DNA from: Hansschlegelia beijingensis
GTDB lineage: Bacteria; Pseudomonadota; Alphaproteobacteria; Rhizobiales; Methylopilaceae
Assembly (NCBI RefSeq): GCF_014196425.1
Contig: NZ_JACIDR010000001.1
Coordinates: 372,001-436,000 of the forward strand
Length of the DNA stretch: 64,000 bases
Direction: 5' to 3'
Positions 36,380 through 55,235 of the stretch are shown here, one piece after another. The notes below the pieces were generated by a model. It saw only the letters and a list, made by a program, of their open reading frames with translations, ran no database searches and was not told the DNA's origin. A program made the translations under genes and the position numbers. The first letter of the stretch is position 1. Every line of letters begins with the position of its first letter.

Positions 36380-39022
36380 TCATGCCCCGTCGCCGACGCT
36401 CAGCAACGCGACCGGCAGGCTGAGCGCGTCAGCCAAGGAGATCTTGGCCTGAAGCGCGACCTTGCGGCCCGAGAACAGCTCCGTCGCCGATCGGCCGACA
36501 AGCTCCGATGGAAGCGTGACGTGGCATTCGCGCAACAGTTCGGGTTTAGCCACAAGGCTCGGGAACGAAGTCTGCTTATCGTAAAGGTTGCGGAGGCCGA
36601 CCACGCACACGGCTTCCCCGTTGAGCGTCCGCGCGAAAGCCACCACGTCGTCGGCGTTCCCTCCCTCGGCCTTGAGCGGGGTGTAGGCCCCGTCGGCGAA
36701 CAGCGCGGCGCGCTTGCGGCGCTCGGCCAACACGGTGCTGATCAGGGCCTGCTTCACCGCGCCGTCCCGCCAATGCTCCGCCGCCTCGAGCACGGTCTCG
36801 CCGCGGGCGAGGGAGGCCTCGCGCGCCGGGTAGTCGACCGGGCGGCGGTTGTCGGGATCGACCAGAGTAAGGTCCCAGTACTCCGTCCCCTGATAGGTGT
36901 CGGGCACGCCGGGGACGGTGAGCTTCAGCAGGATCTGGAGCAGGCCGTTCGCCGCGCCGGCGAGACCGATGCGGTCGGCGAAGGCGGCGATCTCCGCCCG
37001 CAGCGGCAGGCCGGGCTCGGTCAGGAGGCGCGTCAGGAGCTCGCGCGCGGCCGTTTCGTAGGGCTCGTTTTGCTTGCTCCAGTCGGTGGCGAGCTTCGCC
37101 TCGCGCATGGCCTTCTCCTGCCAAGCCACGAGCCGTTCGGCGAAAGCCTTGCAGCCTTCGAGATCGTCGGGCGCGAGATCATGCGGCCATGCCCCGACGA
37201 GCGTCTGGTAGAGGATGGCCTCATCGCCGGGCGCGGGCGCGGCCTCGCTCCGCAGCGGCTCGGCGGCCGCGCGCCAGCGGGTGACGGCCTCCGCCCAGTC
37301 CTCCGGGATCTCGCTCAGCACCGCCACCCGCGCGCGGACGTCTTCGCCGCGCTTGTGGTCGTGCGTCGCGGTGGTCAGCATGGCGCGCGGGAAGCTCTTG
37401 GCCCGGGCGATCATCTTGTCGTGGAAGGTCTCGACGCTGATCGAGAAGGTCGCGACGTCGAAGCCGACGTCGGTGCGCGAGATCAGGCGGCCGTAGCGGT
37501 AGAAGGCGGTGTCCTCGACCGCCTTGGCGGCCACCGGCGCCGACAGCTGCTGGAAGCGCTGGATCGCGCGGTCGCGCAGATAGAGCTGGTCGGCGGGGCC
37601 GACCTCGCCGCCGAGCCATTTGTCGAGCAGGTCCAGCACCGGCGCGTCGGCCGGCAGGATCGTCTGCCGGGCCTTCTCCAGCGCGCGGCCGAACAGCTCC
37701 TTGTCGGCCTCGGTGCGGCCGGTCGCGGCGGAGGCGTAGGTCCGGTAGGCGGGAAAATGCACCAGCAGCTCGGTCAGCGCGCGCCGGATGGCGGCGCGGG
37801 GCGTGTCGCGGGTGTGGTAGTCGAGCCGCGCCACGGCGTGCAGCGCGTTGGTCGCCTGGTCGAGCTGCGCGGAGAAGGATCGGTCGAGGATCTCGCGGCG
37901 GGCGATCTCCTCCTCGGCGTGGAAGTCCGGCGAACGGCCGCTGATCTCGGCCCAGAAGGCGCCGAGCTTCTCCTCGCCGCGCGGGTCGTGCAGCAGGGCG
38001 CTCACGTCGTCCATGAAGTCGTAGCCGCTGGCGCCGTCGACCTTCCAGTCGGCCGGCAGGCGCTCGCCGGGGCCGAGGATCTTCTCGACGACCAGATAGG
38101 CGGGCTGCCTGGCGAGCTCACCGGGCCGTTCGCGCTGCGCCTCCTCGAGATGCTCCCGAAGGTTGCGCGCATAGAGCTTCGGGTCCGCCAGACCGTCGAT
38201 GTGGTCGACGCGGAAGCCGTCGATCAGCCCTTCCGCATAGAGCCGCAGCAGAAGCTCGTGGGTGGCCTCGAACACGGCGGGATCGGAGATCCTGAGGCCC
38301 GCGAGTTCGTTCACGTCGAAGAAGCGCCGCCAGTTGATCTCGTCGCCCGCCACCGTCCAGGAGGCGAGGCGGAAGTTCTGCTTCTCGAGCAGCGCGTGGA
38401 GCAGGGCCTCGCCCTCGGGCGTGGTCCCGTCATAGGCCTCGAGGCCGTTCGCCTCGATCTCGAGCCGGTCCTGCGGCCGAAGCGGGAACAGGTGGTCGGC
38501 GTAGCGCAGCGTCAGCCCGCCGCGCCGGCCCTCGCGGGTGATCTTGAGCTCGCCGGACCGCAGCGCCTCGCCATAGGACATGCCGAGCGTCGGCAGCAGG
38601 ATCTTGCCGTCGAGCGCGGGGTCGGCCGGCTCCCAGTCGATGTCGAAGAAATGGCCGAAGCGGCTCCCGCGGCCATAGGCCAGCACGTCGAGCCACCAGG
38701 CGTTGTCGTCGCGCCCCACCGCCATGTGGTTCGGGACGATGTCGACGATCATCCCGAGCCCTTCCGCGCGCAGCGCGGCGACCAGGGCGCGGAAGCCCTC
38801 CTCGCCGCCGAGCTCGGGATTGACGGTGGTCGGGTCGACCACGTCGTAGCCGTGCATCGAACCGGCGCGCGCGGTCAGGATCGGCGACGAGTAGAGGTGG
38901 CTGATCCCGAGCTTGCGCAGATAGGGGACGAGCGGAATGGCCGCCTGGAACGGAAAGTCCTTGTGGAACTGCATCCGCATGGTGGCGCGAGGGGGGTAGG
39001 CGGGCGCCTGCGCTTGCGTCAC
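36380..39022 (-). CDS. treY: Malto-oligosyltrehalose synthase
   Basis: Intramolecular transglucosylase (GH13) that converts the reducing-end maltose unit of alpha-glucan to a trehalosyl end, the first step of the TreY/TreZ route. It has 880 residues, slightly longer than many. Motifs are LRKLGISHLYSSPILTARAGSMHGYDV, IVDIVPNHMAVGRDD, GFRVDHIDGLADPK (nucleophile Asp), YLVVEKILGPGERLP (acid/base Glu), TATHDHKRGEDVRAR (Asp) and VPGVPDTYQGTEYWDLTLVDPDNR. The start is GTG 39022, overlapping the malQ stop as GTGA. TreZ is encoded two genes upstream in the same operon. Confidence 0.96.
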   Translation of the reverse strand: MTQAQAPAYPPRATMRMQFHKDFPFQAAIPLVPYLRKLGISHLYSSPILTARAGSMHGYDVVDPTTVNPELGGEEGFRALVAALRAEGLGMIVDIVPNHMAVGRDDNAWWLDVLAYGRGSRFGHFFDIDWEPADPALDGKILLPTLGMSYGEALRSGELKITREGRRGGLTLRYADHLFPLRPQDRLEIEANGLEAYDGTTPEGEALLHALLEKQNFRLASWTVAGDEINWRRFFDVNELAGLRISDPAVFEATHELLLRLYAEGLIDGFRVDHIDGLADPKLYARNLREHLEEAQRERPGELARQPAYLVVEKILGPGERLPADWKVDGASGYDFMDDVSALLHDPRGEEKLGAFWAEISGRSPDFHAEEEIARREILDRSFSAQLDQATNALHAVARLDYHTRDTPRAAIRRALTELLVHFPAYRTYASAATGRTEADKELFGRALEKARQTILPADAPVLDLLDKWLGGEVGPADQLYLRDRAIQRFQQLSAPVAAKAVEDTAFYRYGRLISRTDVGFDVATFSISVETFHDKMIARAKSFPRAMLTTATHDHKRGEDVRARVAVLSEIPEDWAEAVTRWRAAAEPLRSEAAPAPGDEAILYQTLVGAWPHDLAPDDLEGCKAFAERLVAWQEKAMREAKLATDWSKQNEPYETAARELLTRLLTEPGLPLRAEIAAFADRIGLAGAANGLLQILLKLTVPGVPDTYQGTEYWDLTLVDPDNRRPVDYPAREASLARGETVLEAAEHWRDGAVKQALISTVLAERRKRAALFADGAYTPLKAEGGNADDVVAFARTLNGEAVCVVGLRNLYDKQTSFPSLVAKPELLRECHVTLPSELVGRSATELFSGRKVALQAKISLADALSLPVALLSVGDGA

Positions 39023-41106
39023 GAGGAACGTCTCCTGTCGAGGGCCGAGAGGCGGCCGGCGGCGTCGGGTTCGGCCAGCAGTTGCGGCGCAGGCGCGGGC
39101 AGGCGCCGCCGCCAGTTGGGATGTTCGTCGAGCGTGCCCGGCAGGTTCGGCTGCTCGGTCTGGCCGAGCGCGTCCTCGAGCGGGAGCAGCACCAGCCGCG
39201 ACGGCGTGGCGCTCAGGAACCGGATCGCGGCGTCCACCACCGGGCCGGTGTCGTCAGGCGCGGGCGGCTCGCCTTCGGCCGCGCCCGCCTCGCGGAAGGT
39301 CGCCCATAGCAGCGGCCGATCCGTGGCGCGCTGGGCGGCGGCGCCCGCCTCGTCGTCGCCGAACTGGTCGCCGGGGATCGAGGCCTTGAGCTTGATGTCG
39401 GCGCCGGACCACCAGCCGGCCGTGGTCGGCAGGTCATGGGTGGTGCTCATCGCGAGCGCCTCGGGCGGATAGGCGCTGGGGGCGAAGAAGCGCCGCTCGT
39501 CCCGTTCGAACTGCAGCACGCGCATGCCCGCCACCCCGGCCTCCGCCAGACGCTCGCGAAAACCCTCCGGCACGGTGCCGAGATCCTCGCCGACCACCAC
39601 GGCGCCGTGGCGGTGGGACTCGAGCGCGATCAGCCTGAGCATGTCGTCGAGCGGCAGGCTGAGATAGGCGCCCTCCGTGGCGCGCGCGCCGTCGGGCGCC
39701 ATCCACAGCCGGGTGAGCCCCATGACGTGGTCGATCCGCACGCCGCCGGCGTGCCGCATGCAGGCGCGCAGCGTCGCCAGGAAGGGCGCGAAGCCTGTCG
39801 CCCTGAGCGCGAGCGGCGAGAAGGTCGCGAGCCCCCAGGACTGGCCGTTCGGATTGAACAGATCCGGCGGAGAGCCGACCGAAAGGCCGACCAGCACGTC
39901 CCTGTGCCGGCTCCAGGCGTGGCTGCCGCCGGCGTCCATGCCGACCGCGAGGTCAGAGATCAGGCCGATCGACATGCCGGAATCGCGCGCGGCCTTCTGG
40001 GCGGCGGCGAGCGAGCGGTCCGCGATCCACTGCATGAAGCTGTGGAAGTCGACCTCGCCGGCCGCCCGCGCCGCGAACGCCGCGACTTCCGGGCTGTCGG
40101 GATCGCGCAGCGGCTCGGGCCATGAGCGCCAGTCCCACTGCGAGGGATCGGCGCCGAAACGCTCGGCGTGCAGCGCCTCGAAGCGCGCGTGCTGCTCCAG
40201 CAACTCCCCGCCTTCCTTGCGGAAGGCCGCGAAATCGAGCGCGAGGCGGCCGCCCGGCTGCTGCGCCTGATCGAAGGCGCGGAAGCTCTCGAACAGGGTG
40301 CGCAGCGTGGCGAGCTTGGCGGCGGCGGCCGTCGGCCAGTCGATCAGACCCGCGCCTTCGCCGGCGCGCCGCGTGTCGCCGACGCCCGAAGCCTCGATGG
40401 CCTCCGCGACCCGGTCCTCGCCGAACAGGAACTCCGGGTCGGCGTTGAGCGGATTGAGGAACAGGCGGCTCGACGGCGAATAGGGCCCGAAATGGTGCGG
40501 ATCGGCGCTGAAGCCGGCATGCAGCGGGCTCAGCGCGAGCGCGTCCGCTCCCGCGCGGCCGAGCGTGTCGGCGAGCGCCGCGACGCCGCCCATGTCGCCG
40601 ATGCCGCCGTCGCCGCGGCGCGGCAGGCCGTAGACCTGCGCCGCCACGCCCCACATCCGGCGGCCGCCGCCGGCGTCGAGGATGCTCCTGCCACAGGTGG
40701 GCGCGGCCGCGATCGTCACGACCTGGTCGCCGACTTCGAGGCGGTGATAGCCGGGCTCCAGGACCGGGCGCATCAGGGCGAGCCCGCCCGGGGCCTCGCC
40801 GAGCGTCAGGTCGAAGGTCGCGCCGTCCTCGCGCACGAAGCGGGCGGGCGCGTTCGGCCGGGCCTTCAGGGCGAAGGACTGGCCGACGGGGGCGGTGACG
40901 AGCGGCTCGGGGGTCCGGTCGATCTGGTCGAGCCGGTTCAGCGAGTCCTGCGCGTCGGCGTCCGTCCCGCAGGGAAGGTCCATCGCGTCCAGCAGACGGC
41001 GCAGCGCGTCCGGCGCGACGGTCTGTTGCTCCCCTGCCTGATCCGTCCAGTCGACCGCGAAGCCGACGCGGGTGGCGACCTTGCTAACGAGATCGTCCTT
41101 GCTCAA
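39019..41106 (-). CDS. malQ: 4-alpha-glucanotransferase (amylomaltase)
   Basis: GH77 disproportionating enzyme that rearranges malto-oligosaccharides; 695 residues including an N-terminal beta-rich extension (about 1–150) found in proteobacterial MalQ. Motifs are YGLPRRGDGGIGDMGGVAALA, GLISDLAVGMDAGGSHAW, the catalytic RIDHVMGLTRLW (Asp), VVGEDLGTVPEGFRERL (Glu) and STTHDLPTTAGWW (Asp). It overlaps treY (downstream) and treZ (upstream) by 4 bp each. It sits between the two trehalose-forming enzymes and probably lengthens short maltodextrins so TreY can act on them. Confidence 0.95.
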   Translation of the reverse strand: MSKDDLVSKVATRVGFAVDWTDQAGEQQTVAPDALRRLLDAMDLPCGTDADAQDSLNRLDQIDRTPEPLVTAPVGQSFALKARPNAPARFVREDGATFDLTLGEAPGGLALMRPVLEPGYHRLEVGDQVVTIAAAPTCGRSILDAGGGRRMWGVAAQVYGLPRRGDGGIGDMGGVAALADTLGRAGADALALSPLHAGFSADPHHFGPYSPSSRLFLNPLNADPEFLFGEDRVAEAIEASGVGDTRRAGEGAGLIDWPTAAAAKLATLRTLFESFRAFDQAQQPGGRLALDFAAFRKEGGELLEQHARFEALHAERFGADPSQWDWRSWPEPLRDPDSPEVAAFAARAAGEVDFHSFMQWIADRSLAAAQKAARDSGMSIGLISDLAVGMDAGGSHAWSRHRDVLVGLSVGSPPDLFNPNGQSWGLATFSPLALRATGFAPFLATLRACMRHAGGVRIDHVMGLTRLWMAPDGARATEGAYLSLPLDDMLRLIALESHRHGAVVVGEDLGTVPEGFRERLAEAGVAGMRVLQFERDERRFFAPSAYPPEALAMSTTHDLPTTAGWWSGADIKLKASIPGDQFGDDEAGAAAQRATDRPLLWATFREAGAAEGEPPAPDDTGPVVDAAIRFLSATPSRLVLLPLEDALGQTEQPNLPGTLDEHPNWRRRLPAPAPQLLAEPDAAGRLSALDRRRSS

Positions 41107-42857
41107 GCGGCGCGCTCCAACAACGCTACGGTCGTGTAGCCGGGCAGCGTTCCGGCCGCGGCGGCCTCGGCGGCGCCGGAGGACGATTCAAACAGCACGG
41201 GTCCGGCGAGACCGGACGCCGCGATCGAAGCATCGGCGAGGTTCACCGCGATGGTGAGCACGGCCCCGTCCTCCGCCTTCCAGCGCGAGACGACGGCCTT
41301 GGGTCCGATCACCTCGGCGCCCGCCGGGGCGAAGCCGGGAAGGCGGGGCGTTATCTCGGCGGCGCGCAGCGACAGCAGGCGCCGGAACAACGCCGTTCGG
41401 GCCTCCGCCCGCTGCGGGTGCGGCTCGGGGATCGAGGCCTCGAAGGTCTCGACCGCGTTCGGGTCCGGCACCTCGGCGCCCGCGAAGGCGGCGAACTTGG
41501 CGAACTCCTTCCGCCGGCCCTCCCGGACCGCGTCGGCCAGGTCGCCATGATGGTCGGTGAAAAACAGGAAGGGGGTCTCGCTGGCGACCTCCTCTCCCAT
41601 GAAGATCATCGGCACCTGCGGGCACAGCAGCAGCACGGCGGTGGCGGCCTCGACGCCCTCCGGCGGGGCGAGCTTCGTCAGGCGATCGCCGAAGGCGCGG
41701 TTGCCGATCTGGTCGTGGTTCTGCAGGAAGCTGACGAAGGCGGTCGGCGGCAGATGGGCGCTCGGCGTGCCGCGCGGCTTGCCGCCCTGATGCGGCGAGG
41801 GATCGCCCTGGTAGACGAAGCCCTCCTGCAGCGTGCGGGCGAGCTTGCCGGCCGTGTCGTGGGCGAAGTCTTCGTAATAGCCCTCGTGCTCTCCCGTCAG
41901 CAGCACATGGAAGACGTGGTGGAAGTCGTCGTTCCACTGCGCGTCCACCTCGCCGGCGAGGTGGCTCTGCTCGTTGAACTCGTTCTCGAGGATGAGGTGG
42001 ACGTAGCGGCCGTCCTGCTCGGCTTCGCGCACGGCGCGCGCAGTCTCGTCGATCCAGTCCTGCTCGGAGATCGCGTGGACGGCGTCCATGCGCAGGCCGT
42101 CGAAGCGATACTCCTGGAGCCAGAACAGCATGTTCTCGGTGAAGTAGCTGCGCACCTCCGGGAGCCGGAAGTCGATCGCGCCGCCCCAGGGGGTCTGGAG
42201 GTCGTCCCGGAACATCGGCGGCGCATAGGCGCCGATGTAGTTCCCGTCCGGGCCGAAGTGGTTGTAGACCACGTCGAGGATCATCATCAGGCCGAGCTCG
42301 TGGGCGCGGTCGACCAGCGCCTTGAGCTCCTCCGGCGTGCCGTAGGCAGCGTCCGGCGCATAGGGCAGCACGCCGTCATAGCCCCAGTTCCGGGTCCCGG
42401 GAAAATCCGCGATCGGCATCAGCTCGATCGCCGTCACGCCGAGCTCGGCGAGCAGGGGCAGGGCTTCCGCCACGCCGACGAAGCCCCCGAAGCAGCCGAC
42501 ATGCAGCTCGTACACGACGGCTTCCTGCCAGGGCCGGCCGCGCCAGTCGCCCGATCGCCAGGAATAGGCCTTCGGGTCGACCACCACGCTCCAGCCATGC
42601 ACGTCGCCGTCCTGGAAGCGCGAAGCCGGGTCCGGGACCGTCAGCCCGTCCGGCAGATGGAAGCGGTAGCGGGCGCCGGCCGGAACCTCGACCGTCTTGC
42701 TGAACCAGCCCCCGTCCTCGGGATCCATCAGGATCGGATCGCGGTCGCGGATCTCGAGCCGGACCTCCGGATGCGCGGGCGCCCAGAAGCGGAACGTCGC
42801 GCGGCCATCGGAAAAGGCCGCGCCGAAAGGCAGGCGGCGTTCGAACACGGAGGGCAA
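41103..42857 (-). CDS. treZ: Malto-oligosyltrehalose trehalohydrolase
   Basis: GH13 enzyme that releases trehalose from the malto-oligosyltrehalose made by TreY; 584 residues. An N-terminal carbohydrate-binding-like domain (RLPFGAAFSDGRATFRFWAP) precedes the barrel. The barrel shows ELHVGCFGGFVGVAEALPLLAELGVTAIELMP, LGLMMILDVVYNHFGPDGNYI, the nucleophile GLRMDAVHAI, acid/base LILENEFNE and VSFLQNHDQIGNRAFG. The start is TTG 42857, 4 bp after the glgX stop; it overlaps malQ by 4 bp. No ATG gives the expected N-terminus. Confidence 0.95.
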   Translation of the reverse strand: MPSVFERRLPFGAAFSDGRATFRFWAPAHPEVRLEIRDRDPILMDPEDGGWFSKTVEVPAGARYRFHLPDGLTVPDPASRFQDGDVHGWSVVVDPKAYSWRSGDWRGRPWQEAVVYELHVGCFGGFVGVAEALPLLAELGVTAIELMPIADFPGTRNWGYDGVLPYAPDAAYGTPEELKALVDRAHELGLMMILDVVYNHFGPDGNYIGAYAPPMFRDDLQTPWGGAIDFRLPEVRSYFTENMLFWLQEYRFDGLRMDAVHAISEQDWIDETARAVREAEQDGRYVHLILENEFNEQSHLAGEVDAQWNDDFHHVFHVLLTGEHEGYYEDFAHDTAGKLARTLQEGFVYQGDPSPHQGGKPRGTPSAHLPPTAFVSFLQNHDQIGNRAFGDRLTKLAPPEGVEAATAVLLLCPQVPMIFMGEEVASETPFLFFTDHHGDLADAVREGRRKEFAKFAAFAGAEVPDPNAVETFEASIPEPHPQRAEARTALFRRLLSLRAAEITPRLPGFAPAGAEVIGPKAVVSRWKAEDGAVLTIAVNLADASIAASGLAGPVLFESSSGAAEAAAAGTLPGYTTVALLERAA

Positions 42858-42861
42858 AAAG

Positions 42862-44988
42862 CTAAGCTCCCGATGGGCCGGACGGGGATCCCGGCTCTGG
42901 CGAGGGGACGAGGGAAAGGCCGAGCACCGCGCTTTTCGCCGCGACCTGCACCACCTCGCGATCGACGACGCGCTCAGGCGCGTCGGGCCGGGCGCTGTCG
43001 ATCAGGAGAAAGGTGGGCAGGCCCGGAGAGGGCAGCCGGAACGCGCGGTCCTTGTCGGTCGGATTGAGCATGAGAGTGAGAATGGGCGTCGAGCCGTCCT
43101 CGCGGCGCTCGGCGCGGCGGAGCGTCAACGTTCGCTCCGCAGGGTCGTTCCAGGCCTCCGCGCTGATTGGCTCGCCGTGCTCGTCGAACCACGCGATGTC
43201 GAGCACGCCCGGCGCCGGCTCCTCCCGCCCGTGCAGGAAATTCTTCGAGCGGAGAACCGGCTGCGCTTTGCGGAGCGCGATCAGACGGGCGACGAAGGCC
43301 GTCAGGGCCGCGCCCTCGTCCTCCTCGGCGAGCGTCCAGTCGATCCACGAAATCTCGTTGTCCTGCGCGTAGGCGTTGTTGTTGCCCCGCTGGCTGCGGC
43401 CGAACTCGTCGCCCGCCAGCAGCATGGGCGTGCCGTTGGCGAAGATCGTGGTGGTGAGCATGGCGCGCGCCACACGGCCTCTGATCGTCCGGATGATGGG
43501 GTCGAAGGTCGGGCCCTCGACGCCCCAGTTCGCCGAATAGTTCTCGTGGTGGCCGTCGCGGTTCTCCTCGCCGTTGGCGTGGTTGTGTCGCGCGACGTAG
43601 GAGGTCGCGTCGGCCAGCGTGTAGCCGTCATGCGAGGCGACGTAGTTGATCGAGGCCCACGGCTTCCTCGAACGGCGGTCGAACAGGTCGCTGGAGCCGG
43701 CGAGCCGCGCGGCGAGCTCGGGGCGCTGGCCGCCGTCGCCGCGCCAGAAGCGGCGCACGCTGTCCCGGAACCTGTCGTTCCATTCCGCGAAGCCCGGCGG
43801 GTGGTGGCCGAGCTGGTAGCCGCCCGGACCGATGTCCCACGGTTCCGAGATCAGCTTGACCCGGGCGAGGGTCGGATCCTGCCGCAACGCGTCGAAGAAG
43901 CCCGAGCCGGGATCGAAGCCATGGGCCTCGCGGCCGAGCGTCACCCCGAGGTCGAAGCGGAACCCGTCGACGTGGTAGGCCTCAACCCAGTACCGCAAGC
44001 TGTCCATGACCACCTGAAGCACCCGGGGGTGCGAAAGGTTCACGGTGTTGCCGGTGCCGGTGTCGTTTACGCAGTAGCGCGGCTCGCCCTCGATCAGCCG
44101 GTAGTAGCTGGCGTTGTCGAGTCCGCGGAACGACAGGGTGGGACCGAGCTCGCTGCCCTCGGCGGTGTGGTTGTAGACGACGTCGAGGATGACCTCGAGG
44201 CCGGCCGCGTGCAGCCGGCGAATCGCAACCTTGAGCTCGTTCAGCGAGCCGTCGGAAAGATACCGGGCCTCGGGCGCGAAGAAGCCGAGCGTGTTGTAGC
44301 CCCAGTAGTTCCTCAGGCCTTTCTCGACGAGCACGCGGTCCTGCAGGAAGGCGTGGATCGGCAGAAGCTCGATCGCGGTGACGCCCAGCCGCTTGTAGTG
44401 CTCGATCATCGGCGGGCTCGCCAGCGCCGCGAAGGTGCCGCGCTCGTGGGCGCGGATGTCCTGGCGCAGCATCGTCAGGCCGCGGACATGCGCCTCGTAG
44501 ATGACGGTGTCGCTCCACGGCGTGTTGGGCGGCCGGTCGTCTCCCCAGTTGAAGACGTCGTCGGTCACCACCGCCTTCGGCATCGCGGGCGCGCTGTCCC
44601 GCCGGTCCATGGTCAGGTCGGCGCGCGGGCTGTGCAGGCGGTAGCCGTAGAGCGCGTCGGACCAGCGCACCTCGCCCGCGATCTGCTTGGCGTAGGGGTC
44701 GAGCAGCAGCTTGTGCGGGTTGAAGCGGTGCCCGTCCTGCGGCTCGTAGGGGCCGTGCGCGCGGAAACCGTAGAGCAGTCCTGCGCGGGCGTCGGGCAGA
44801 TAGCCGTGGAAGACCTCGTCGGTCTTCTCCGGCAGGGGCATCCGGGCGATCTCCCGGCGCCCCGAGGGGTCGAAAAGGCAGAGGTCGATCTGCTCGGCGT
44901 GCGCGGAGAACACCGCGAAGTTCACGCCGAGCCCGTCCCAGGTCGCCCCGAGCGGGTAAGGCGAGCCGGGCTCCAGGACCCCGCTCAC
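42862..44988 (-). CDS. glgX: Glycogen debranching enzyme (isoamylase type), copy 1
   Basis: GH13 enzyme that hydrolyses alpha-1,6 branches of phosphorylase-limited glycogen; 708 residues. Motifs are LGATWDGLGVNFAVFSAHA (N-terminal CBM48), ELLPIHAFLQDRVLVEKGLRNYWGYNTLGFFAPE, LEVILDVVYNHTAEGSELGPTLSFRG, nucleophile GFRFDLGVTLGRE, acid/base KLISEPWDIGPGGYQLG and YVASHDGYTLAD. The start is GTG 44988 after an AGGGGGCGG purine stretch; ATG is absent. It lies 63 bp after glgB and 4 bp before treZ. A second glgX is at 53.2 kb. Confidence 0.95.
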   Translation of the reverse strand: MSGVLEPGSPYPLGATWDGLGVNFAVFSAHAEQIDLCLFDPSGRREIARMPLPEKTDEVFHGYLPDARAGLLYGFRAHGPYEPQDGHRFNPHKLLLDPYAKQIAGEVRWSDALYGYRLHSPRADLTMDRRDSAPAMPKAVVTDDVFNWGDDRPPNTPWSDTVIYEAHVRGLTMLRQDIRAHERGTFAALASPPMIEHYKRLGVTAIELLPIHAFLQDRVLVEKGLRNYWGYNTLGFFAPEARYLSDGSLNELKVAIRRLHAAGLEVILDVVYNHTAEGSELGPTLSFRGLDNASYYRLIEGEPRYCVNDTGTGNTVNLSHPRVLQVVMDSLRYWVEAYHVDGFRFDLGVTLGREAHGFDPGSGFFDALRQDPTLARVKLISEPWDIGPGGYQLGHHPPGFAEWNDRFRDSVRRFWRGDGGQRPELAARLAGSSDLFDRRSRKPWASINYVASHDGYTLADATSYVARHNHANGEENRDGHHENYSANWGVEGPTFDPIIRTIRGRVARAMLTTTIFANGTPMLLAGDEFGRSQRGNNNAYAQDNEISWIDWTLAEEDEGAALTAFVARLIALRKAQPVLRSKNFLHGREEPAPGVLDIAWFDEHGEPISAEAWNDPAERTLTLRRAERREDGSTPILTLMLNPTDKDRAFRLPSPGLPTFLLIDSARPDAPERVVDREVVQVAAKSAVLGLSLVPSPEPGSPSGPSGA

Positions 44989-45051: not shown

Positions 45052-47238
45052 TCAGGCGGGCCTGAGCGCCACGACGCCAAGCGGCGGAAGCGTGAGGTCG
45101 AGCGCCTGCTGCTCGCCGTGGCTGGCGGCCTCGACGGTCGGGACCGCGCCCCCATTGCCGACGTTGGATCCGCCATAGATCTCCGCATCCGTGTTGATGA
45201 TCTCCCGCCAGACCCCGGCCGTCGGGACGCCGATGCGATATCCGTGCCGAGGCACGGGCGTCATGTTCGCGACGACCAGCACGGGCGGGGCGCCCGCCTC
45301 ACCGTAGCGCAAGAACGCGAACACCGAGTTGGCGCGATCGTCGCCGATCATCCAGCGGAAGCCGGCCGGCTCGGCGTCCTTGGCATGCAGGGCGCCCTCC
45401 GCCGCGTAGACGCGGTTCAGGTCGCGGATCAGGCGCTGCACGCCCGCGTGATTGGGGTTGTCGAGCGCGGGCCAGTCGAGCTGGTCGTCATGGTTCCACT
45501 CGCGCCCCTGCGCGATCTCGCCGCCCATGAACAGCAGCTTCTTTCCCGGATGGGTCCACATCAGGCCGTACAGGGCGCGCAGATTGGCGAATTTCTGCCA
45601 CGCGTCGCCCGGCATCTTGCCCAGCAGCGAGCCCTTGCCGTGCACCACCTCGTCATGGCTCAGCGGCAGCACGAACTTCTCCGAAAAGGCGTAGACCAGC
45701 CCGAAGGTGATCCCGTCATGATCGTACTGACGGTAGATCGGGTTCTGCTGCATGTAATGCAGCGTGTCGTGCATCCAGCCCATGTTCCACTTGTAGTGGA
45801 AGCCAAGTCCGTTCTCCTCGGTCGGGCGGGTGACGCCGGGCCACGCCGTCGATTCCTCCGCGATCGTCATCGCGCTCGGGACCCGCTCCCGCACCACCGC
45901 GTTCATGTGCTGGAGGAAGGCGACCGCCTCCAGGTTCTCGCGCCCGCCATACTGGTTCGGGATCCACTCGCCGGCCTTGCGGCTGTAGTCGCGGTAGAGC
46001 ATCGACGCGACGGCGTCGACGCGCAGCCCGTCGACGTGGAAGCGCTCCAGCCAGAACAGTCCGCTCGCGATCAGGAAGTTCTGCACCTCGCGGCGGCCGA
46101 AATTGTAGATCGCGGTGTTCCAGTCGATGTGGAAGCCTTCGCGCGGGTCGGCGTGCTCGTAGAGCGCTGTGCCGTCGAAGCGGTAGAGGCCGTGGCTGTC
46201 GGTCGGGAAATGCGCCGGAACCCAGTCGACCACCACGCCGATGCCGGCCGCATGCGCGGCGTCCACGAAGCGGGCGAAATCCTCGGGCGCGCCGTACCGG
46301 CCGGTCGGCGCGAACAGGCCGAGCGGCTGATAGCCCCACGAGCCGCCGAACGGATGCTCGGCCACGGGCAGCAGTTCGATATGGGTGAAGCCGAGATCGG
46401 CCACGTAGGGGATGAGCTTCTCGATCGCGAAGCTCCAGTCGACCTCGCGACCGTTAGGCTTCATCCACGAGCCGAGATGAACCTCATAGAAGCTGAGCGG
46501 CGCCTCCGGCGCCTGGCGCTCGCCCCGTCGCGCCATCCACTCGTGGTCCGTCCAGGCGTAGGGCTCAGCGGACGCCACGATCGAGGCGGTGCCGGGCGCC
46601 TTCTCGGCGGAGCGGGCGATCGGGTCGGCCTTGTCGGGCAGCCGCGAGCCGTCGGGGCCGATCAGCGCGAACTTGTAACGCTCGCCGGGCCTCAGCCGCG
46701 GAACGAAGATCTCCCAAACGCCGGAAGGCAGACGGCGGCGCATGCCGTGCCGGCGGCTGTCCCAGGAGTTGAAGTCGCCGATGACCGAGACGCGCCGGGC
46801 GTTGGGCGCCCAGACCGCGAAGCGCACGCCCTCGACGCCGTCGATGGTCATCGGGTTGGCGCCGAGCGCGGAGGCGAGCTCGAAGTGCCGGGATTCGCCA
46901 AGCAGATGGAGGTCGAGGTCGCCGAGCAGGAGCCCGAACGAATACGGGTCCTCGGTTTCCTGAACGCCGCCCGGCCATTCGATCCTCAGCAGATAGGGAT
47001 CGACGCCGGAGATCGGGCCCTCGAACACGCCAGTGCCCTCGATCTCGCGCAGGACGCCGAGCGGCCGACGATCATCGCGCGACACGACCTCGACGGAAGC
47101 CGCGCCCGGCAGGACGGCGCGCACATAGGGTCCGTCGCCGTCGTCACGCCGGCCGAGCGCTCCGAAGGGATCGCCGTGCGTTCCATCGGCGAGCGCCGCC
47201 AGGGCGCCGGAGTTGAGCGACGTCGTCGCCACGCTCAT
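45052..47238 (-). CDS. glgB: 1,4-alpha-glucan branching enzyme
   Basis: Introduces alpha-1,6 branches in glycogen made by GlgA or GlgE; 728 residues, GH13. Two N-terminal CBM48-like modules (about 20–110 and 125–220, the second containing [21 protein letters not shown]) precede the barrel. The barrel has [41 protein letters not shown], nucleophile [17 protein letters not shown], acid/base [30 protein letters not shown], and [13 protein letters not shown]. The ATG overlaps the stop of the treS–kinase fusion by 4 bp. Confidence 0.97.
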
Positions 47239-50200
47239 GCCGCGCCTCCTTCCTCGGGAGCGAGCCGTTGGGCGAGCGCGTGGAGGCCGCCCAGCGGCAC
47301 GTCGAGCCAGCTCGGCCGGTTCGCCGCCTCATAGGCGATCTCGTAAGCCGCCTTCTCGATCAGGAACATGTCCAGCAGCTCCACGGATAGCGGCAGCCCG
47401 GCGGCCAGGGTGGTCTGGCGATAGGCGTTGAGGAAGGCTTCGGCCGCGTCGGAGCGGAAGCGCTCCAGGAAGTCCTCGCGGCGCGCGCCGGAGACGTGCG
47501 GAGACGACTGCTCGTTGCGGCCGACCATCGCGGCCGCATAGTCGAAGGACCGCAGCACGCCGGCGACGTCGCGCAGCGGGCTCGCCTTGCCGCGTCGCTC
47601 CTCGAGGGGCCGGGCCGGCTCCCCCTCGAAGTCGATGAAGACCGCGTCCTCGCCCGCGACGAGGATCTGGCCGAGATGGAGGTCGCCGTGGATGCGCGTC
47701 ACCGGGGAGCCGATGCCGGTATCCGCCAGCCGCCCGATCGCCGCCTCGAGCGCGTCCTTGCGCCTGATGAGCGACGCCGAGCGCTCGGCGTCTTCCTCGC
47801 GCTCCCAGTCCGACCGCGCCTCGAGCGCGTGCATGGCCCCCTCGAGCAGGCTCAGGGCGCGCTTCTTCCAGCTCTCGACCTCGCGGGTCGTGGCGGACAG
47901 CGGCGCGAAGTCCGGCTCGGAGCTCGGGCGCGCCAGCACGCCGTGCAGCTCCGCGAGGCGCGCGCCCAGATTGCCGGCGAACCGCGTGAACTCGGTGAAG
48001 CGGTGGTGTTCGGACATGTCGCCGCCGCCGGCCGCGCCGAAATCGTCGAGGGCGCGGGTGAGATGGTCGAGCGTCCACTGCCAGGCGTCGCCCTGGTTGC
48101 GGACATAGCCCTGGATGATCGCGAGCGTCGCGCGCGAGCCGTCGGCCGCGACGCGCACCATCTCGCCCAGGAAGGGCGCGGCGTTGCCGTAGCCCTGCTC
48201 GGTCAGGTAGCGCCCCATCTCGGCTTCCGGGTGGACGCCGGGGGCGACCTTGCGGAGCAGCTTGATCATCATCGCGTCGCCGGCGATCAGCGACGAGTTG
48301 GACTGCTCGGCCGAGAGCCAGTGGATCTCGGCGTCCTCGGGCAGCTCCGGAATCTCCACGCCCGCGGCGCGTTCGAAGATGATCTCGCCTTCGCCGCTCT
48401 TGAGGCGCTTGCCTTCCCGCAGGGAGCTCCCGATCGCGAATGCGAAGGACGGCAGCGCGAAGGCGTCGGTCAGAAGCTGGACCTCGCGGCCGCGGCGGAC
48501 GCGGGCGAGCGCCAGCCGGCTCGCGAGCGCGGACAGGCGCTCGTCCTCCGAGACCACCGCGAGCGGGAGCAGCCAGCGCGTCGGCTCGGCGCCGCCGGTG
48601 ACTTCGACCTCGATCAGGCCGATCTCCTGTGCGCCCCCCGGCAGACGGGAAAGCGCCTTGATCCGCGCCACGATCTGCTTCTGGTCCTTGCCTGAGAACC
48701 AGCGGCGTTTCGCCAGATAGCTCGGCAGCACGGCGCTCTCGAGCGTCTTGCGAGCTTCCGTCTGCATCGCGTCGTCCACGCCTGCGCGCAGCACGAGTGT
48801 CTCGTAGTCAGCCATGGGTTCGGGCGCCGGGGTATGCCAGGCGGGCCGGGCTTCCTCGGTGGCGAGGACGAACCAGTAGAACCCGTATGGCGGGAGGGTG
48901 AGGAGGTAGGTCAGCTGGCCGATCGGCGGGAACACCGATCCCGCCGTCAGTTCGACCGGCACGCGGCCGGCGAACTCTGAAAGCTCGAGCTCCACCGCCT
49001 GCGGGGACCGTCCCATATTGGCCACGCACAGGATGGTCTCGCCTTCGTGCTCGCGCAGATAGGCCAGCACCCGGCGGTTCTGCGGGAACAGGAACCTGAT
49101 GCTGCCACGGCCGAAGGCCGGGTGCTGTCGCCGCGTCGCCAGCATGCGGCGCGTCCAGTTCAGCAGCGAATGCGGGTCGCGGGCCTGCGCTTCCACATTG
49201 ACGGCGTAGTAGCCGTAGAGCGGGTCCATCACCGGCGGCAGCACCAGCGACGCCGGGTCGGCGCGCGAGAAGCCGCCGTTCCGGTCGATCGACCACTGCA
49301 TCGGCGTGCGCACGCCGTCGCGGTCGCCGAGATGGATGTTGTCCCCCATGCCGATCTCGTCGCCGTAGTAGATCACCGGCGTGCCGGGCATCGACAGCAG
49401 CAGGCAGTTCATCAACTCGATGCGGCGCCGGTCGCGCTCCATGAGCGGGGCGAGACGGCGGCGGATGCCGAGGTTGATGCGGGCGCGCTTGTCGGAGGCG
49501 TAGGTGTTCCAGAGGTAGTCGCGCTCCTTGTCGGTGACCATCTCGAGCGTCAGCTCGTCGTGGTTCCGCAGGAAGATCGCCCACTGGCAGTTGTCCGGGA
49601 TCGCCGGCGTCTGCCGCATGATGTCGGTGATCGGGAAGCGGTCCTCGCGCGCGATCGCCATGTACATCCGCGGCATCAGCGGGAAGTGGAACGCCATGTG
49701 GCATTCGTCGCCGTCGCCGAAATAGTCCTTGGTGTCCTCCGGCCACATGTTGGCCTCGGCGATCAGGAACCGGTCCGGATAGGTGCGGTCGAGCTCGGCC
49801 CTGATCTTCTTCAGGATGTCGTGGGTCTCGGGCAGGTTCTCGTTGGAGGTGCCGTCGCGCTCGATCAGGTAGGGGACCGCGTCGAGGCGCAGCCCGTCGA
49901 TGCCGAGGTCGAGCCAGAACTTCATCACCCCGAACACGGCCTTCAGCACGGCAGGGTTCTCGAAGTTCAGGTCGGGCTGGTGGCTGTAGAACCGGTGCCA
50001 GAAATACTGGCCGGCGACCGGGTCCCAGGTCCAGTTCGACCGCTCGGTGTCGAGGAAGATGATGCGCGTTCCGGAGTAGAGCGTGTCGTCGTCCGACCAG
50101 ACGTAGAAGTTGCGGTGCGCGGAGCCCTTCTTGGCCTTGCGCGCCCGCTGGAACCAGGGGTGTTGGTCCGAGGTGTGGTTGATGACGAGCTCGGAGACGA

Positions 50201-50549
50201 CCTTCAGGCCCCGCCGATGCGCCTCGTGGATGAAGCGCTTCACGTCGGCGAGCGTGCCGTAGTCCGGCGAGACGCCCTTGTATTCGGAGATGTCGTAGCC
50301 GTCGTCGAGCCGCGGGCTCGGATAGAACGGCAGAAGCCAGATCACGCTGACGCCGAGGCCCGCGATGTAGTCGAGCTTCGAGATCAGGCCCGGGAAATCG
50401 CCGATGCCGTCCTCGTTCGAGTCGAAGAACGACTTGACGTGCAACTGGTAGATGATCGCGTCCTTGTACCACAAGGGATCGACGCCCTCGCGGGTGACGA
50501 CGGTTCCGCGCGGCTTGGTCAGCTCGGCGTGGGCCACGGGCGCATTCAT
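47235..50549 (-). CDS. treS: Trehalose synthase–maltokinase fusion (TreS–Mak)
   Basis: A 1104-residue bifunctional protein. The N-terminal GH13 part (about 1–560) is trehalose synthase, isomerising trehalose and maltose. Motifs are [45 protein letters not shown], nucleophile [19 protein letters not shown], acid/base [20 protein letters not shown] and [13 protein letters not shown]. The C-terminal part (about 600–1100) is an aminoglycoside-kinase-fold maltokinase with catalytic [13 protein letters not shown] and metal-binding VFIDFEGEP. It makes maltose-1-phosphate for GlgE. ATG 50549 overlaps the glgE stop (TGATG). TreS–Mak fusions are known in GlgE-pathway bacteria. Confidence 0.95.
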
Positions 50550-52546
50550 CAAGCGACTCCCTGGAGGCGGGTCAGCCTCCACACGTGAAACGGCATTTCC
50601 CGGGGGTTGAAATAGACCGATTGGGTCTTGCCGGTCAGCGTGAAACGATTGCCGCGCATGAGATCCTCCACGGCCAGTGCGCCATGGTCGGGAAGACCAA
50701 ACTCCCAAAGCGGCAATTCGTAGGTCGCGTGGCGTTCAAAATCCGGATCGAGCGAGATGAGGACGAGGATCATCTCGTCGAGCGGGGCGCCGTCCGGCGA
50801 GCCGCCCGGCTTGCCGAAGCACAGCACCATGTCGTCGAACGCGTTGTAGAAGCGGACGTTGAGGTGCGTCTGGAGCGCCGGGTTCTCGCGCCTGATGCGG
50901 TTCAGGCGGGTGATCTCGGTGATGATGTTGCCGGGCTGGTTCCAGTTCCGGACTCGGATCTCGTACTTCTCGCTGTCGAGATACTCCTCCTTGCCCGGCA
51001 GCGGCGCGGCCTCGCAAAGCTCGAAGCCGTTGTACATGCCCCAGAGGCCCGACAGCGTGGTGGCGAGCGCCGCCCGGATCAGGAAGCCGGCGCGCCCCGA
51101 CGTCTGCAGGAAGAACGGGTTGATGTCAGGCGTGTTGACAAAGAAGTGCGGCCTGAAGAAATGCTTCGGGTCCGCGGTGCTCAGCTCCGTCAGGTACTCC
51201 TGAATTTCCTGCTTGTGGTTGCGCCAGGTGAAGTAGGTGTAGGACTGCGAGTATCCGAGCTTGGCGAGCCGATACATCACCTTCGGGCGCGTGAAGGCCT
51301 CGGCCAGGAAGATCACGTCGGGATGTTCGGCGCGGATGTCGGCGATCATCCATTCCCAGAAGGCGAACGACTTGGTGTGCGGGTTGTCGACCCGGAAGGT
51401 CTTCACGCCCTGCTCGACCCAGTACAGCACGACGTCGCGCAGCGCCTGCCACAGGCCGGGCACCGCGTCGGGCGCGTAGAAGTCGACGTTGACGATGTCC
51501 TGGTACTTTTTCGGCGGGTTCTCGGCGTATTTGATGGTGCCGTCCGGCCGCCAGTCGAACCAGCCCGGATGCTCCTTGAGCCAGGGATGGTCGGGCGAGC
51601 ACTGGATCGCGAAGTCGAGCGCGATTTCGAGCCCGTGCTGCGCGGCGGCCGCGACCAGCTCGCGGAAATCCTCGATGGTGCCGAGCTCCGGATGCACGGC
51701 GTCATGGCCGCCCTCGGCCGATCCGATGGCGTAGGGGCTGCCGACATCCGCCGGCCCGGGGGTCAGGGTGTTGTTGCGGCCCTTGCGATTGGTCTCGCCG
51801 ATCGGGTGGATCGGCGGGAAATAGAGGACGTCGAAGCCCATGTCGCGGATCATCGGCAGCCGCCGGATGACGTCGCGGAACGAGCCGTGGCGGTTGGGAT
51901 CGCCGCTCTCGGAACGTGGGAACAGTTCGTACCAGCTCGCGAACTCCGCCTGGATCCGCTCCACCTCTAGCGGATAGGAGTCGCTGCGCGAGGCGAAGGC
52001 GCGCCGGTCCGCCCTGAGCGCGGCCTCATGGGTCGCCCGCGAGAGCAGCTGGCTCACCCGGTCCGCCACGTCGGAATCGCGCGCCCTCAGGATCAGGTCG
52101 ACCAGCGGCCGCGCCGCCTCGGGGCGGGCGGCGGAGGCCAGCTTCTCGAGCAGGATCAGGCCTTCCTCGGTCTCCAGCGAGACGTCCAGGCCGACCTCGC
52201 GCTTCTTGGTCAGGTCGCGCCGGAACGTCCCGAACTCGTCCCACCAGGCCTCGACGACGATCTCGTGCCGCCCGATCGCCTCGGGCGTCAGCACGGCCCG
52301 CCAGCGGTCGTTCGCGATCAGCCGCATCGGCGCCCGGCGGAACTCCTGGTCGTCCGGGCCTCGCCACAGCACGTCGGCGAGCAGCATGTCGTGGCCGTCG
52401 GCGAAAATGTCGGCCTCGACCGTGACGGGCCGGCCGACGATCGTCTTCACCGGGAAACGCCCGGCGTCGACCGTAGGGCTCAGCGCCTCGATCGCGATCC
52501 GGGGCCGCCTGGCCGCCTCGACGGCTCCGGCAGAGTCATCACGCAT
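50549..52546 (-). CDS. glgE: Alpha-1,4-glucan:maltose-1-phosphate maltosyltransferase
   Basis: GH13_3 enzyme that adds maltosyl units from maltose-1-phosphate to alpha-glucan; 665 residues, the typical GlgE length. An N-terminal beta domain (RIAIEALSPTVDAGRFPVK) precedes the barrel. The barrel has MGFDVLYFPPIHPIGETNRKG, EIALDFAIQCSPDHPWL, nucleophile FRVDNPHTKSFAFWEWMI, acid/base IFLAEAFTRPKVMYRLAKLG and FFVNTPDINPFFLQ (Asp). ATG 52546 has GGAG 9 bp upstream; the frame extending to 52669 would overlap the promoter region. It is the first gene of the operon glgE–treS/mak–glgB–glgX–treZ–malQ–treY. Confidence 0.96.
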   Translation of the reverse strand: MRDDSAGAVEAARRPRIAIEALSPTVDAGRFPVKTIVGRPVTVEADIFADGHDMLLADVLWRGPDDQEFRRAPMRLIANDRWRAVLTPEAIGRHEIVVEAWWDEFGTFRRDLTKKREVGLDVSLETEEGLILLEKLASAARPEAARPLVDLILRARDSDVADRVSQLLSRATHEAALRADRRAFASRSDSYPLEVERIQAEFASWYELFPRSESGDPNRHGSFRDVIRRLPMIRDMGFDVLYFPPIHPIGETNRKGRNNTLTPGPADVGSPYAIGSAEGGHDAVHPELGTIEDFRELVAAAAQHGLEIALDFAIQCSPDHPWLKEHPGWFDWRPDGTIKYAENPPKKYQDIVNVDFYAPDAVPGLWQALRDVVLYWVEQGVKTFRVDNPHTKSFAFWEWMIADIRAEHPDVIFLAEAFTRPKVMYRLAKLGYSQSYTYFTWRNHKQEIQEYLTELSTADPKHFFRPHFFVNTPDINPFFLQTSGRAGFLIRAALATTLSGLWGMYNGFELCEAAPLPGKEEYLDSEKYEIRVRNWNQPGNIITEITRLNRIRRENPALQTHLNVRFYNAFDDMVLCFGKPGGSPDGAPLDEMILVLISLDPDFERHATYELPLWEFGLPDHGALAVEDLMRGNRFTLTGKTQSVYFNPREMPFHVWRLTRLQGVA

Positions 52547-52588: not shown

Positions 52589-52614
52589 AACCGGGAAATG
52601 CTGTGCGGGGTTCC
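52589..52614 (-). promoter_or_regulatory. EcfG-type stress promoter candidate for the glgE operon
   Basis: On the minus strand GGAAC (52614–52610), 17 bp, then GGTT (52592–52589). This fits the alphaproteobacterial general-stress sigma EcfG consensus GGAAC-N16–17-CGTT with one mismatch in the -10 element. The -10 element is about 42 bp from the glgE ATG. Confidence 0.5.
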
Positions 52615-52618
52615 GCCC

Positions 52619-52644
52619 GGAACTCGACACATCGGTCGGAGGTT
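52619..52644 (+). promoter_or_regulatory. EcfG-type stress promoter candidate for the DUF2934 gene
   Basis: GGAAC (52619–52623), 17 bp, GGTT (52641–52644), about 39 bp from the ATG at 52684. It is the divergent mirror of the glgE motif only 4 bp away, with identical spacing and the same one mismatch to consensus. Confidence 0.5.
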
Positions 52645-52683
52645 CTTTCCGACAACCCCTGAGCACCACGAAGGAAGCCAGGA

Positions 52684-53073
52684 ATGAAGGACCGCGAACG
52701 CAGAACTCGGGAAATCGCCTATCGGCTCTGGGAAGACGCGGGGCGCCCGGAGGGCCAGGAGCGCGAGCACTGGCTGGAGGCGGAGCGTCGGGTGGCGGCG
52801 GAAGCCGGCGAGCCCGCTCCGAAGGCGGTCCAGAAGGCCGACAAGAAGGCCGACAAAAAGCCGGTCAAGGCGCCGAAGGCGGCCGCGCTCGGCGCCGCCG
52901 ACGCCGCGAAGGCGGCGGTCGCCGCCGGCAAGGGCAAGGCGGACCCGAAAATGCAGCCCAAGCCGTCGGGGAAGAAGCCGTCGCCGGCGGACACGCCCGC
53001 GGTCTCGGCGCCTCCGGTCCGCGGCGCCGCCGGCAAGGCCGCCAAGGCGAAGCCGGCCAAGCCCTCCAAATGA
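52684..53073 (+). CDS. DUF2934 protein with histone-H1-like Lys/Ala/Pro tail
   Basis: A 129-residue protein. Residues 1–40 (RTREIAYRLWEDAGRPEGQEREHW LEAER) are the DUF2934 motif (AYxLWExxGRPxGxxxxHWxxAE). The rest is a low-complexity tail rich in Lys, Ala and Pro (repeats of ADKK, PKAA, AKPAK) resembling histone-H1-like proteins, so DNA or polyanion binding is plausible but unproven. It is divergent from glgE. DUF2934 genes are frequently found next to glycogen/trehalose genes in Rhizobiales. ATG 52684 has AAGGAAG/CCAGGA just upstream. Confidence 0.82.
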   Translation: MKDRERRTREIAYRLWEDAGRPEGQEREHWLEAERRVAAEAGEPAPKAVQKADKKADKKPVKAPKAAALGAADAAKAAVAAGKGKADPKMQPKPSGKKPSPADTPAVSAPPVRGAAGKAAKAKPAKPSK

Positions 53074-53098
53074 TTTCAGCCGGAACGTCCGGCGGGCG

Positions 53099-53124
53099 GG
53101 AACGCCTGTCGCGGGTTCGCCGTT
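53099..53124 (+). promoter_or_regulatory. EcfG-type stress promoter, perfect consensus, upstream of second glgX
   Basis: GGAAC (53099–53103), exactly 17 bp, CGTT (53121–53124). This is the full EcfG general-stress consensus and lies 56 bp before the ATG of glgX copy 2, immediately after the DUF2934 stop. Confidence 0.65.
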
Positions 53125-53180
53125 AGGAAGGCTGCGATTGGCAGGCGGCTTTCCGCCCGCCGCAGAGGGGCGACATCCAT

Positions 53181-55235
53181 ATGGCCGATATCAGGACGGA
53201 CCGCCGGGCTGAAGCCGGGCGGCCGACGCAGCTTGGCGCGACCTATGACGGGGAGGGCACCAATTTCGCGCTGTTCTCCGCCTATGCCGAGCGGGTGGAG
53301 CTCTGTCTGTTCAACGCCGACGGCGTCGAGACCGAGCGGGTCACGCTGCCCGAATACACCGACGAGATCTGGCACGGCTATCTGCCGGGCGTCGGCCCCG
53401 GGCAGATCTACGGCTACCGCGTCCACGGCCGCTACGCCCCGGAGGAGGGGCACCGCTTCAATCCGAACAAGCTGCTGATCGACCCTTACGCGAAGTCGCT
53501 GGTCGGTTCGATCGACTGGAACGACGCGCATTTCGGCTACGATCTCCTCGCCGAGGACAAGGATCTGACGTTCGACGAGCGCGACAGCGCGCCGTTCATG
53601 CCGAAATGCGAGGTGATCGACCCCAGCTTCGATTGGTCGGGCGACGTCAAGCCGGACGTCCCGTGGGACCGGACGGTGTTCTACGAGACCCATGTGCGCG
53701 GCTTCACCAAGCTGCATCCGGGGGTGCCGGAGGAGCTGCGCGGCACCTTCGACGGGCTCTCCCAGGACGTCGTCGTGGACTACATCAAGGCGCTCGGGGT
53801 GACCTCGGTCGAGCTGTTGCCGGTCCACGCCTTCCTCGACGACCAGCATCTGCTCGACAAGGGGCTGCGGAACTACTGGGGCTACAACACCATCGCCTTC
53901 TTCGCCCCGATGGGCCGCTACATGGGCAAGGGGCGGCTCGCGAGCTTCAAGAACATGGTGCGCCGGTTCCACGACGCCGGCCTCGAGGTGATCCTCGACG
54001 TGGTCTACAACCACACCGCCGAAGGCAATGAGCTCGGCCCGACGCTGTCGTTCAAGGGCATCGACAACCTGTCCTACTACCGCACGATGCCGGACGAGCA
54101 TCGCTATTACATCAACGACACCGGCACCGGGAACACCGTCAACACCAGCCATCCGCGCGTCCTGCAGATGGTGACCGACAGCCTGCGGTACTGGGTGGAG
54201 GAGTGCCACGTCGACGGCTTCCGTTTCGATCTCGGCACCATTCTCGGGCGGGAGCCGCACGGCTTCGACCAGCGCGGCGGCTTCTTCGACGCCGTGGGCC
54301 AGGACCCGGTGCTCAGGAACGTCAAGCTGGTGGGCGAGCCCTGGGACATCGGCCCGGGCGGCTATCAGGTCGGCGGCTTCCCGCCCGGCTGGGCGGAGTG
54401 GAACGACAAGTACCGCGACGAGGTCCGCGATTACTGGAAGTCGGGCGCCGGCCATCTGGGCAACTTCGCGGCGCGCGTCACCGGCTCGGGCGACGTCTAT
54501 GACTTCCGCGGCCGGCGGCCCTGGGCGGGGGTGAACTTCATCACCGCGCATGACGGTTTCACGCTGAACGACCTCGTCTCCTACAACGAGAAGCACAACG
54601 AGGCGAACGGCGAAGACAACAATGACGGGCACGGCGACAACCGCAGCTACAATTACGGCGTCGAGGGCGAGACCGACGATCCCGGCATCATCGCCGTCCG
54701 CGAGCGCCAGAAGCGCAACCTGATCGCGACGCTGCTGCTCAGCCACGGCACGCCGATGATCCTCGCCGGCGACGAGTTCGGCCGCACCCAGGGCGGCAAC
54801 AACAACGGCTACTGCCAGGACAACGAGATCTCCTGGGTGAACTGGGAGCTCGACGAGAAGGACGAGATTCTGCTCGCCTTCACCAAGCGCCTGCTCCAGC
54901 TGCGCGCCGACAACCCGATCCTGCGCCGCGCGAACTGGCGCGACGGCATGGGCGTCACCTGGATCAATCCCGGCGGCGGCGAGCAGACCGCGGAGCAATG
55001 GGCCGACGAGGCCGCGGACTGCATCGGCCTGCACCTCAGGACGCCGGAGGGCGCGGAGGCGGTGCTGGCGTTCAACGCGCATGACGGCCCGGTGCCGTTC
55101 GTCCTTCCGGAGCGCGAAGGGGGAGGGGCGTGGCGGGTCGTGGTCGACACCGGCCAGCCGCAGGACGACGCTCGCGAGGTTTCTGGTCCCGAGCCGATCG
55201 AAGTCGAAGGCCGCTCGCTCCTCCTGCTGCTCTGA
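53181..55235 (+). CDS. glgX: Glycogen debranching enzyme (isoamylase type), copy 2
   Basis: A 684-residue paralogue of the debranching enzyme at 42.9–45.0 kb but on the opposite strand and separately promoted. It has LGATYDGEGTNFALFSAYA (CBM48), ELLPVHAFLDDQHLLDKGLRNYWGYNTIAFFAP, VILDVVYNHTAEGNELGPTLSFKG, nucleophile GFRFDLGTILGREPHGF, acid/base LVGEPWDIGPGGYQVG and ITAHDGFTLNDLVSYN. All catalytic residues are present. The preceding gene is DUF2934 and a perfect EcfG-type motif lies upstream. It may serve stress-phase glycogen turnover, with copy 1 in the constitutive operon; this division is inference. Confidence 0.95.
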   Translation: MADIRTDRRAEAGRPTQLGATYDGEGTNFALFSAYAERVELCLFNADGVETERVTLPEYTDEIWHGYLPGVGPGQIYGYRVHGRYAPEEGHRFNPNKLLIDPYAKSLVGSIDWNDAHFGYDLLAEDKDLTFDERDSAPFMPKCEVIDPSFDWSGDVKPDVPWDRTVFYETHVRGFTKLHPGVPEELRGTFDGLSQDVVVDYIKALGVTSVELLPVHAFLDDQHLLDKGLRNYWGYNTIAFFAPMGRYMGKGRLASFKNMVRRFHDAGLEVILDVVYNHTAEGNELGPTLSFKGIDNLSYYRTMPDEHRYYINDTGTGNTVNTSHPRVLQMVTDSLRYWVEECHVDGFRFDLGTILGREPHGFDQRGGFFDAVGQDPVLRNVKLVGEPWDIGPGGYQVGGFPPGWAEWNDKYRDEVRDYWKSGAGHLGNFAARVTGSGDVYDFRGRRPWAGVNFITAHDGFTLNDLVSYNEKHNEANGEDNNDGHGDNRSYNYGVEGETDDPGIIAVRERQKRNLIATLLLSHGTPMILAGDEFGRTQGGNNNGYCQDNEISWVNWELDEKDEILLAFTKRLLQLRADNPILRRANWRDGMGVTWINPGGGEQTAEQWADEAADCIGLHLRTPEGAEAVLAFNAHDGPVPFVLPEREGGGAWRVVVDTGQPQDDAREVSGPEPIEVEGRSLLLLL

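Follow-up and report, generated by a model that had tools for sequence, protein, structure and literature searches.

Predicted EcfG-type promoters before glgX2 and a DUF2934 gene at a trehalose/glycogen locus of Hansschlegelia beijingensis

The divergent glgE-glgX2 locus and its three motifs

We analysed a window of 64,000 nucleotides of the Hansschlegelia beijingensis genome (C1:372001-436000; genome of 3.66 Mb in 12 contigs), in which genes were called with a custom script based on codon usage, for which nine genes of the window served as training set. A leftward series of glgE, a treS-maltokinase fusion, glgB, a first glgX copy (glgX1), treZ, malQ and treY, in which neighbours overlap or are separated by at most ~65 bp, diverges from a rightward pair formed by a DUF2934 gene and then a second glgX copy, glgX2 (Table 1). 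Judging from this spacing, the genes from glgE to treY would form a single transcript. The glgE product, which had no NCBIfam match at E 1e-20, has its nearest named relatives in Hansschlegelia quercus, Methylopila, Chelatococcus sambhunathii and Chenggangzhangella (73-77% identity). A consensus scan for sigma-70 promoters found none between 52400 and 53300 on either strand, and the search for known RNA elements gave just a sub-threshold RsmW match at 53128-53248 on the minus strand, which we discarded (22.8 bits against a gathering score of 52, E 0.17). Past glgX2, two alike G+C-rich intergenic stretches at 55250-55900, in which for example CTTGAGCAAGTCGTGGATACCCG occurs twice, have the look of a dispersed repeat.

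Table 1. Features of the locus in window coordinates; the last row gives loci elsewhere in the genus
Feature	Position	Strand	Remarks
treY	36380..39022	-	TIGR02401 above cut-off
malQ, 4-alpha-glucanotransferase	39019..41106	-	TIGR00217 above cut-off
treZ	41103..42857	-	TIGR02402 above cut-off
glgX copy 1 (glgX1)	42862..44988	-	TIGR02100, 1015.9 bits
glgB, branching enzyme	45052..47238	-	TIGR01515 above cut-off
treS-maltokinase fusion	47235..50549	-	TIGR02456 and TIGR02457 above cut-off
glgE, maltosyltransferase, first of leftward cluster	50549..52546	-	PF11896 E 1.1e-52, PF21702 E 3.7e-11
Candidate EcfG-type promoter of glgE, GGAAC-N17-GGTT	52589..52614	-	exact; 42 bp to ATG 52546; not conserved
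Predicted EcfG-type promoter of DUF2934 gene, GGAAC-N17-GGTT	52619..52644	+	exact; 39 bp to ATG 52684
Conserved block TCGGTC-N11-CCGRCAACCCC (two parts, TCGGTC and CCGACAACCCC), 28 bp	52632..52659		13/13 genus genomes
DUF2934 protein gene, 129 aa	52684..53073	+	PF11154 E 8.8e-12
Predicted EcfG-type promoter of glgX2, GGAAC-N17-CGTT	53099..53124	+	exact; 56 bp to ATG 53181
glgX copy 2 (glgX2), glycogen debranching protein	53181..55235	+	TIGR02100, 1051.2 bits (cut-off 640.9)
Motif-bearing DUF2934 paralogue loci	L267, L273, L279, L290, L292		motif lies before the DUF2934 domain (~1501)

A preliminary description of this DNA had placed three motifs of the EcfG type before glgE, the DUF2934 gene and glgX2. 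We found all three to be exact at the positions and on the strands given there, with the same distances to the start codons (Table 1), and each combines the -35 and -10 boxes of an EcfG-type promoter with a spacer of 16-17 bp and a short same-strand distance to a gene. The window holds five matches to the pattern ending in SGTT, where shuffled sequences led us to expect 1.20 and 0 of 100 shuffles reached five, and three matches to the stricter CGTT form, where 0.51 were expected. Upon requiring GGAAC-N16/17-SGTT at most 150 bp upstream of a gene on the same strand, we were left with 3 of the 55 window genes, the same three as above; the two further SGTT matches (43127-43151 and 56784-56808) have no called gene starting up to 150 bp downstream on their strand. 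With a reversed control pattern, the rate is ~0.0008 per 150-bp upstream region, which gives ~0.04 expected occurrences for 55 genes. Taken together, the three motifs are not a product of chance.

General-stress genes and motif occurrence across the genome

The genome encodes PhyR, two NepR proteins and two EcfG-like sigma factors, the EcfG label of the latter resting on adjacency to nepR and on general sigma-factor models rather than on an EcfG-specific model. In the partner switch established in other species, phosphorylated PhyR relieves EcfG of NepR under stress. A first cluster comprises an ECF sigma gene, nepR, a ferritin-like gene, phyR (NF006623, 359 bits against a cut-off of 240) and a HisKA_2 kinase gene that exceeds the cut-off of PF07568 and matches PhyK weakly (NF051872, 133 bits against a cut-off of 750). 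At a second place, another ECF sigma gene, preceded by its own GGAAC-N16-CGTT, stands convergent to the second nepR. Both nepR copies exceed the cut-off of Pfam PF18557 and fall below that of the NCBIfam NepR model. The strict pattern GGAAC-N15-18-NGTT was not found in the 5 kb around phyR-nepR1-ecfG1, where one might be expected. The ferritin-like gene (PF00210; L173:2885-3394, minus strand) sits between phyR and nepR in the core cluster. The motif before the second ecfG (L174:1480-1506) is near-symmetric and reads GGAAC-N16-NGTT on both strands; comparable both-strand matches occur in the genome at C1:42743, C1:1231233 and C7:132242.

The genome-wide scan proposed in the preliminary description revealed enrichment over chance, with 105 matches to GGAAC-N16/17-SGTT and 38 to the reversed control pattern. 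Upon placing 101 of the 105 relative to genes (omitting those less than 300 bp from the end of a stretch, in repeated sequences or at further places that no stretch reached), we counted 43 in intergenic DNA with a start 0-150 bp downstream, 41 within genes and 17 at other places; among the 30 of 38 control matches with loci, 4 were intergenic with a start at that distance. The distances of the promoter-placed matches are concentrated, 38 of 43 falling between 22 and 94 bp.

Conservation of the sites and of a block over the DUF2934 promoter

We compared 13 genomes of the genus that share the locus arrangement, the source genome counted in, and found GGAAC-N16/17-CGTT upstream of glgX2 in every one of them. 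The alignment shows both boxes conserved and the spacer diverged, and in the 11 genomes with a resolved start the site is 56-69 bp away from it (G008 and G010, where it is ambiguous, being excluded from this range). The preliminary description had stressed that all three motifs share a 17-bp spacer, which is true of this genome; since the glgX2 spacer is 16 bp in the 12 other genomes and 17 bp in the source genome only, the common spacer is accidental. Of 21 glgX loci outside the genus, 4 carry GGAAC-N16-CGTT at a distance of 32-65 bp from the called start, 5 have a match farther upstream, at 146-329 bp, and 12 have none within 400 bp; among the four nearest glgX2 loci (70-73% identity), G013 and G036 have the site (57 and 65 bp) and G014 and G017 are without it. 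We regard the glgX2 site as a well-supported predicted promoter of the EcfG type. Reading all three motifs as chance matches in G+C-rich DNA would suit a short and degenerate pattern, 41 of whose 101 examined genome matches lie inside genes, yet it sits so poorly with a glgX2 site kept in 13/13 genomes across diverged spacers, and with the genome-wide enrichment over the reversed control, that we consider it extremely improbable.

Upstream of the DUF2934 gene, GGAAC-N16/17-NGTT is present in 10 of the 13 genomes (8 with GGTT, 2 with TGTT), the boxes being degraded in G003, G004 and G007; this site, too, is well supported as a putative EcfG-type promoter. We retrieved 30 of the genus's 42 DUF2934 matches, 12 from the glgE locus and 18 from other places, and 5 of these 18 paralogues, from three genomes, have GGAAC-N16/17-NGTT shortly upstream (Table 1). 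This suggests that DUF2934 proteins may be recurrent targets of the general stress response, a pairing on which we found nothing in the open-licence literature.

The DUF2934 promoter is overlapped, at its -10 box and expected start, by a 28-bp block of which every one of the 13 genomes has a single exact copy, always at the glgE-DUF2934 locus, and which is intact also in the three genomes whose EcfG boxes have decayed. The 137-bp glgE-DUF2934 interval has 21 invariant columns, 16 of them within the block; in this interval, the block is constrained more strongly than the EcfG boxes of the promoter that it overlaps. It lies 23-27 nt before the DUF2934 ATG and, on its opposite side, 61-88 nt from the nearest candidate glgE ATG (80-88 nt in 11/13), and it is partly dyad-symmetric, reading GTCGG-N9-CCGAC in the source genome. 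Allowing one mismatch genus-wide yielded a single extra match (G000:C1:1267096, one mismatch, in the source genome) and none in the 12 others. In the further glgE loci that we retrieved, no complete copy of the pattern was seen close to glgE; L107 and L112 contain a nine-base core of it, and a loose match lies far from glgE in a Pseudomonas locus (L063).

Several readings of the block were rejected. Against the operator of a regulon, the genus search gave one exact copy per genome plus that single extra match, and at up to three mismatches the matches in its own genome (41+47) do not exceed those of the reversed control (58+70). As coding sequence, it lies within an open glgE frame here, but the frame in G001 (671 aa, matching residues 2-663) does not extend that far. 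As a leftward sigma-70 promoter (TTGTCG-N17-) or an RpoH-like one, judged by eye against consensus sequences, it is poor on the -10 side, with the same deviations recurring across genomes. We tentatively propose, at rather less than even confidence, that the block is a locus-specific operator, through which a putative regulator would gate the general-stress transcription and perhaps also control the divergent glgE cluster.

The glgE-facing site behaves differently from the other two, being present in 1 of the 13 genomes, that of the source. There, the best leftward match upstream of glgE stands out against 200 shuffles preserving base composition only (p 0.01); in the other 12 genomes the best leftward match is not clearly above such shuffles (p 0.06-0.88). 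The site is either a lineage-specific gain or a chance occurrence. Because it is found in one genome of 13, control of the main trehalose/glycogen cluster through a glgE-facing promoter is not established. It may be that only glgX2 and the DUF2934 gene are real EcfG targets, the glgE-facing motif being a chance match and the glgE cluster being served by another promoter, perhaps via the block. The occurrence in 1/13 genomes and the concentration of invariant columns in the block speak for this, whereas a control-type match is expected just ~0.0008 times in the 150-bp upstream region of any one gene, and GGAAC-N16-NGTT faces glgE or its open reading frame in 3 of 9 loci outside the genus (G032, G034 and G040, at 144, 180 and 54 bp), the remaining six having no facing motif in the 1500 bp fetched. 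On balance, we give this account a substantial chance that falls somewhat short of even.

Alternatively, the quasi-palindromic DUF2934 site could act as one bidirectional EcfG promoter, reading [A/T]GAAC-N16/17-NGTT toward glgE, with the motif at 52589 incidental. Such a mirrored site is present in 8 of the 13 genomes, the source genome among them, and -35 boxes with one change (GCAAC, CGAAC) precede EcfG-dependent genes of Sphingomonas melonis according to PMC6599016. The mirrored site is, however, absent from 5/13 genomes, the first G of its -35 box is replaced in 8/8, its GAAC follows in part from the rightward GTT and the C after it, and the p values against shuffles in the 7 relatives that have it are 0.06-0.145; we find a bidirectional promoter unlikely.

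Proposed control and relation to known systems

We consider it very probable that the intergenic DNA holds ordinary EcfG-dependent promoters, from which the DUF2934 gene and glgX2, and perhaps the glgE cluster, would be transcribed on stress. Phosphorylated PhyR would remove NepR from EcfG, EcfG-RNA polymerase would recognise GGAAC (-35) together with CGTT or GGTT (-10) before the two rightward genes, and glycogen debranching would rise along with the stress response via glgX2. In this lineage, the glgE-facing copy may also recruit EcfG and so add glgE-treS-glgB-glgX1-treZ-malQ-treY, a much less certain step to which we give little better than an even chance. Sigma-factor binding, the start sites, induction by stress and the effect on trehalose and glycogen are all predictions from DNA sequence. 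The preliminary description had assigned the whole trehalose/glycogen locus to EcfG; this is well supported for glgX2 (13/13) and the DUF2934 gene (10/13) in a genome that has the general-stress core, and not for the glgE side (1/13).

The predicted promoters share boxes, spacing, start-codon distance and the PhyR-NepR-EcfG core with the EcfG-dependent general-stress promoters of Alphaproteobacteria (GGAAC-N16/17-CGTT), and they differ in having GGTT for CGTT in two of the three sites and in being known from sequence. Among the general-stress promoters of Sphingopyxis granuli, GGTT is one of the frequent -10 variants besides CGTT; changing two other variants to CGTT increased in vitro transcription, and certain promoters with non-consensus boxes were stronger than others with CGTT (PMC7083833). 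By analogy, the two sites with GGTT could be weaker than the one before glgX2, although this does not have to be the case. Paralogous EcfG and NepR, as found here, are described for the two-EcfG system of S. granuli (PMC7083833) and the multi-EcfG system of Methylobacterium extorquens (PMC4814048).

That the general stress response can control trehalose genes, as the preliminary description had noted, is established elsewhere by two reports. S. melonis Fr1 resembles the present case in having glgX and trehalose genes under this response, with an EcfG-dependent cluster of treY, malQ, treZ and glgX (#1273-6); the motif listed there for glgX scores below the cut-off that the authors set, and the gene itself was tested as a putative indirect target, whereas here the glgX2 site is perfect and conserved and glgE, treS and glgB lie nearby (PMC6599016). 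In Bradyrhizobium diazoefficiens, trehalose metabolism is likewise under EcfG, which controls otsA/otsB and treS; the OtsAB pathway was shown to matter there, whereas the genes here are those of GlgE, TreS, TreYZ and GlgX (PMC8092242). On glgE and treS together with a sigma factor in alphaproteobacteria, we found nothing in the open-licence literature. As general-stress control of trehalose/glycogen genes is established elsewhere, our finding would extend a known regulon to a new group.

On good comparative evidence, the likely general-stress targets in Methylopila-type bacteria now include glgX2 and the DUF2934 gene, and the block would offer a specific bait for a second regulator. Should the glgE-facing site be functional, this lineage would have its GlgE/TreS/TreYZ cluster under stress control and its relatives would control theirs differently, which would be a simple case of regulon gain.
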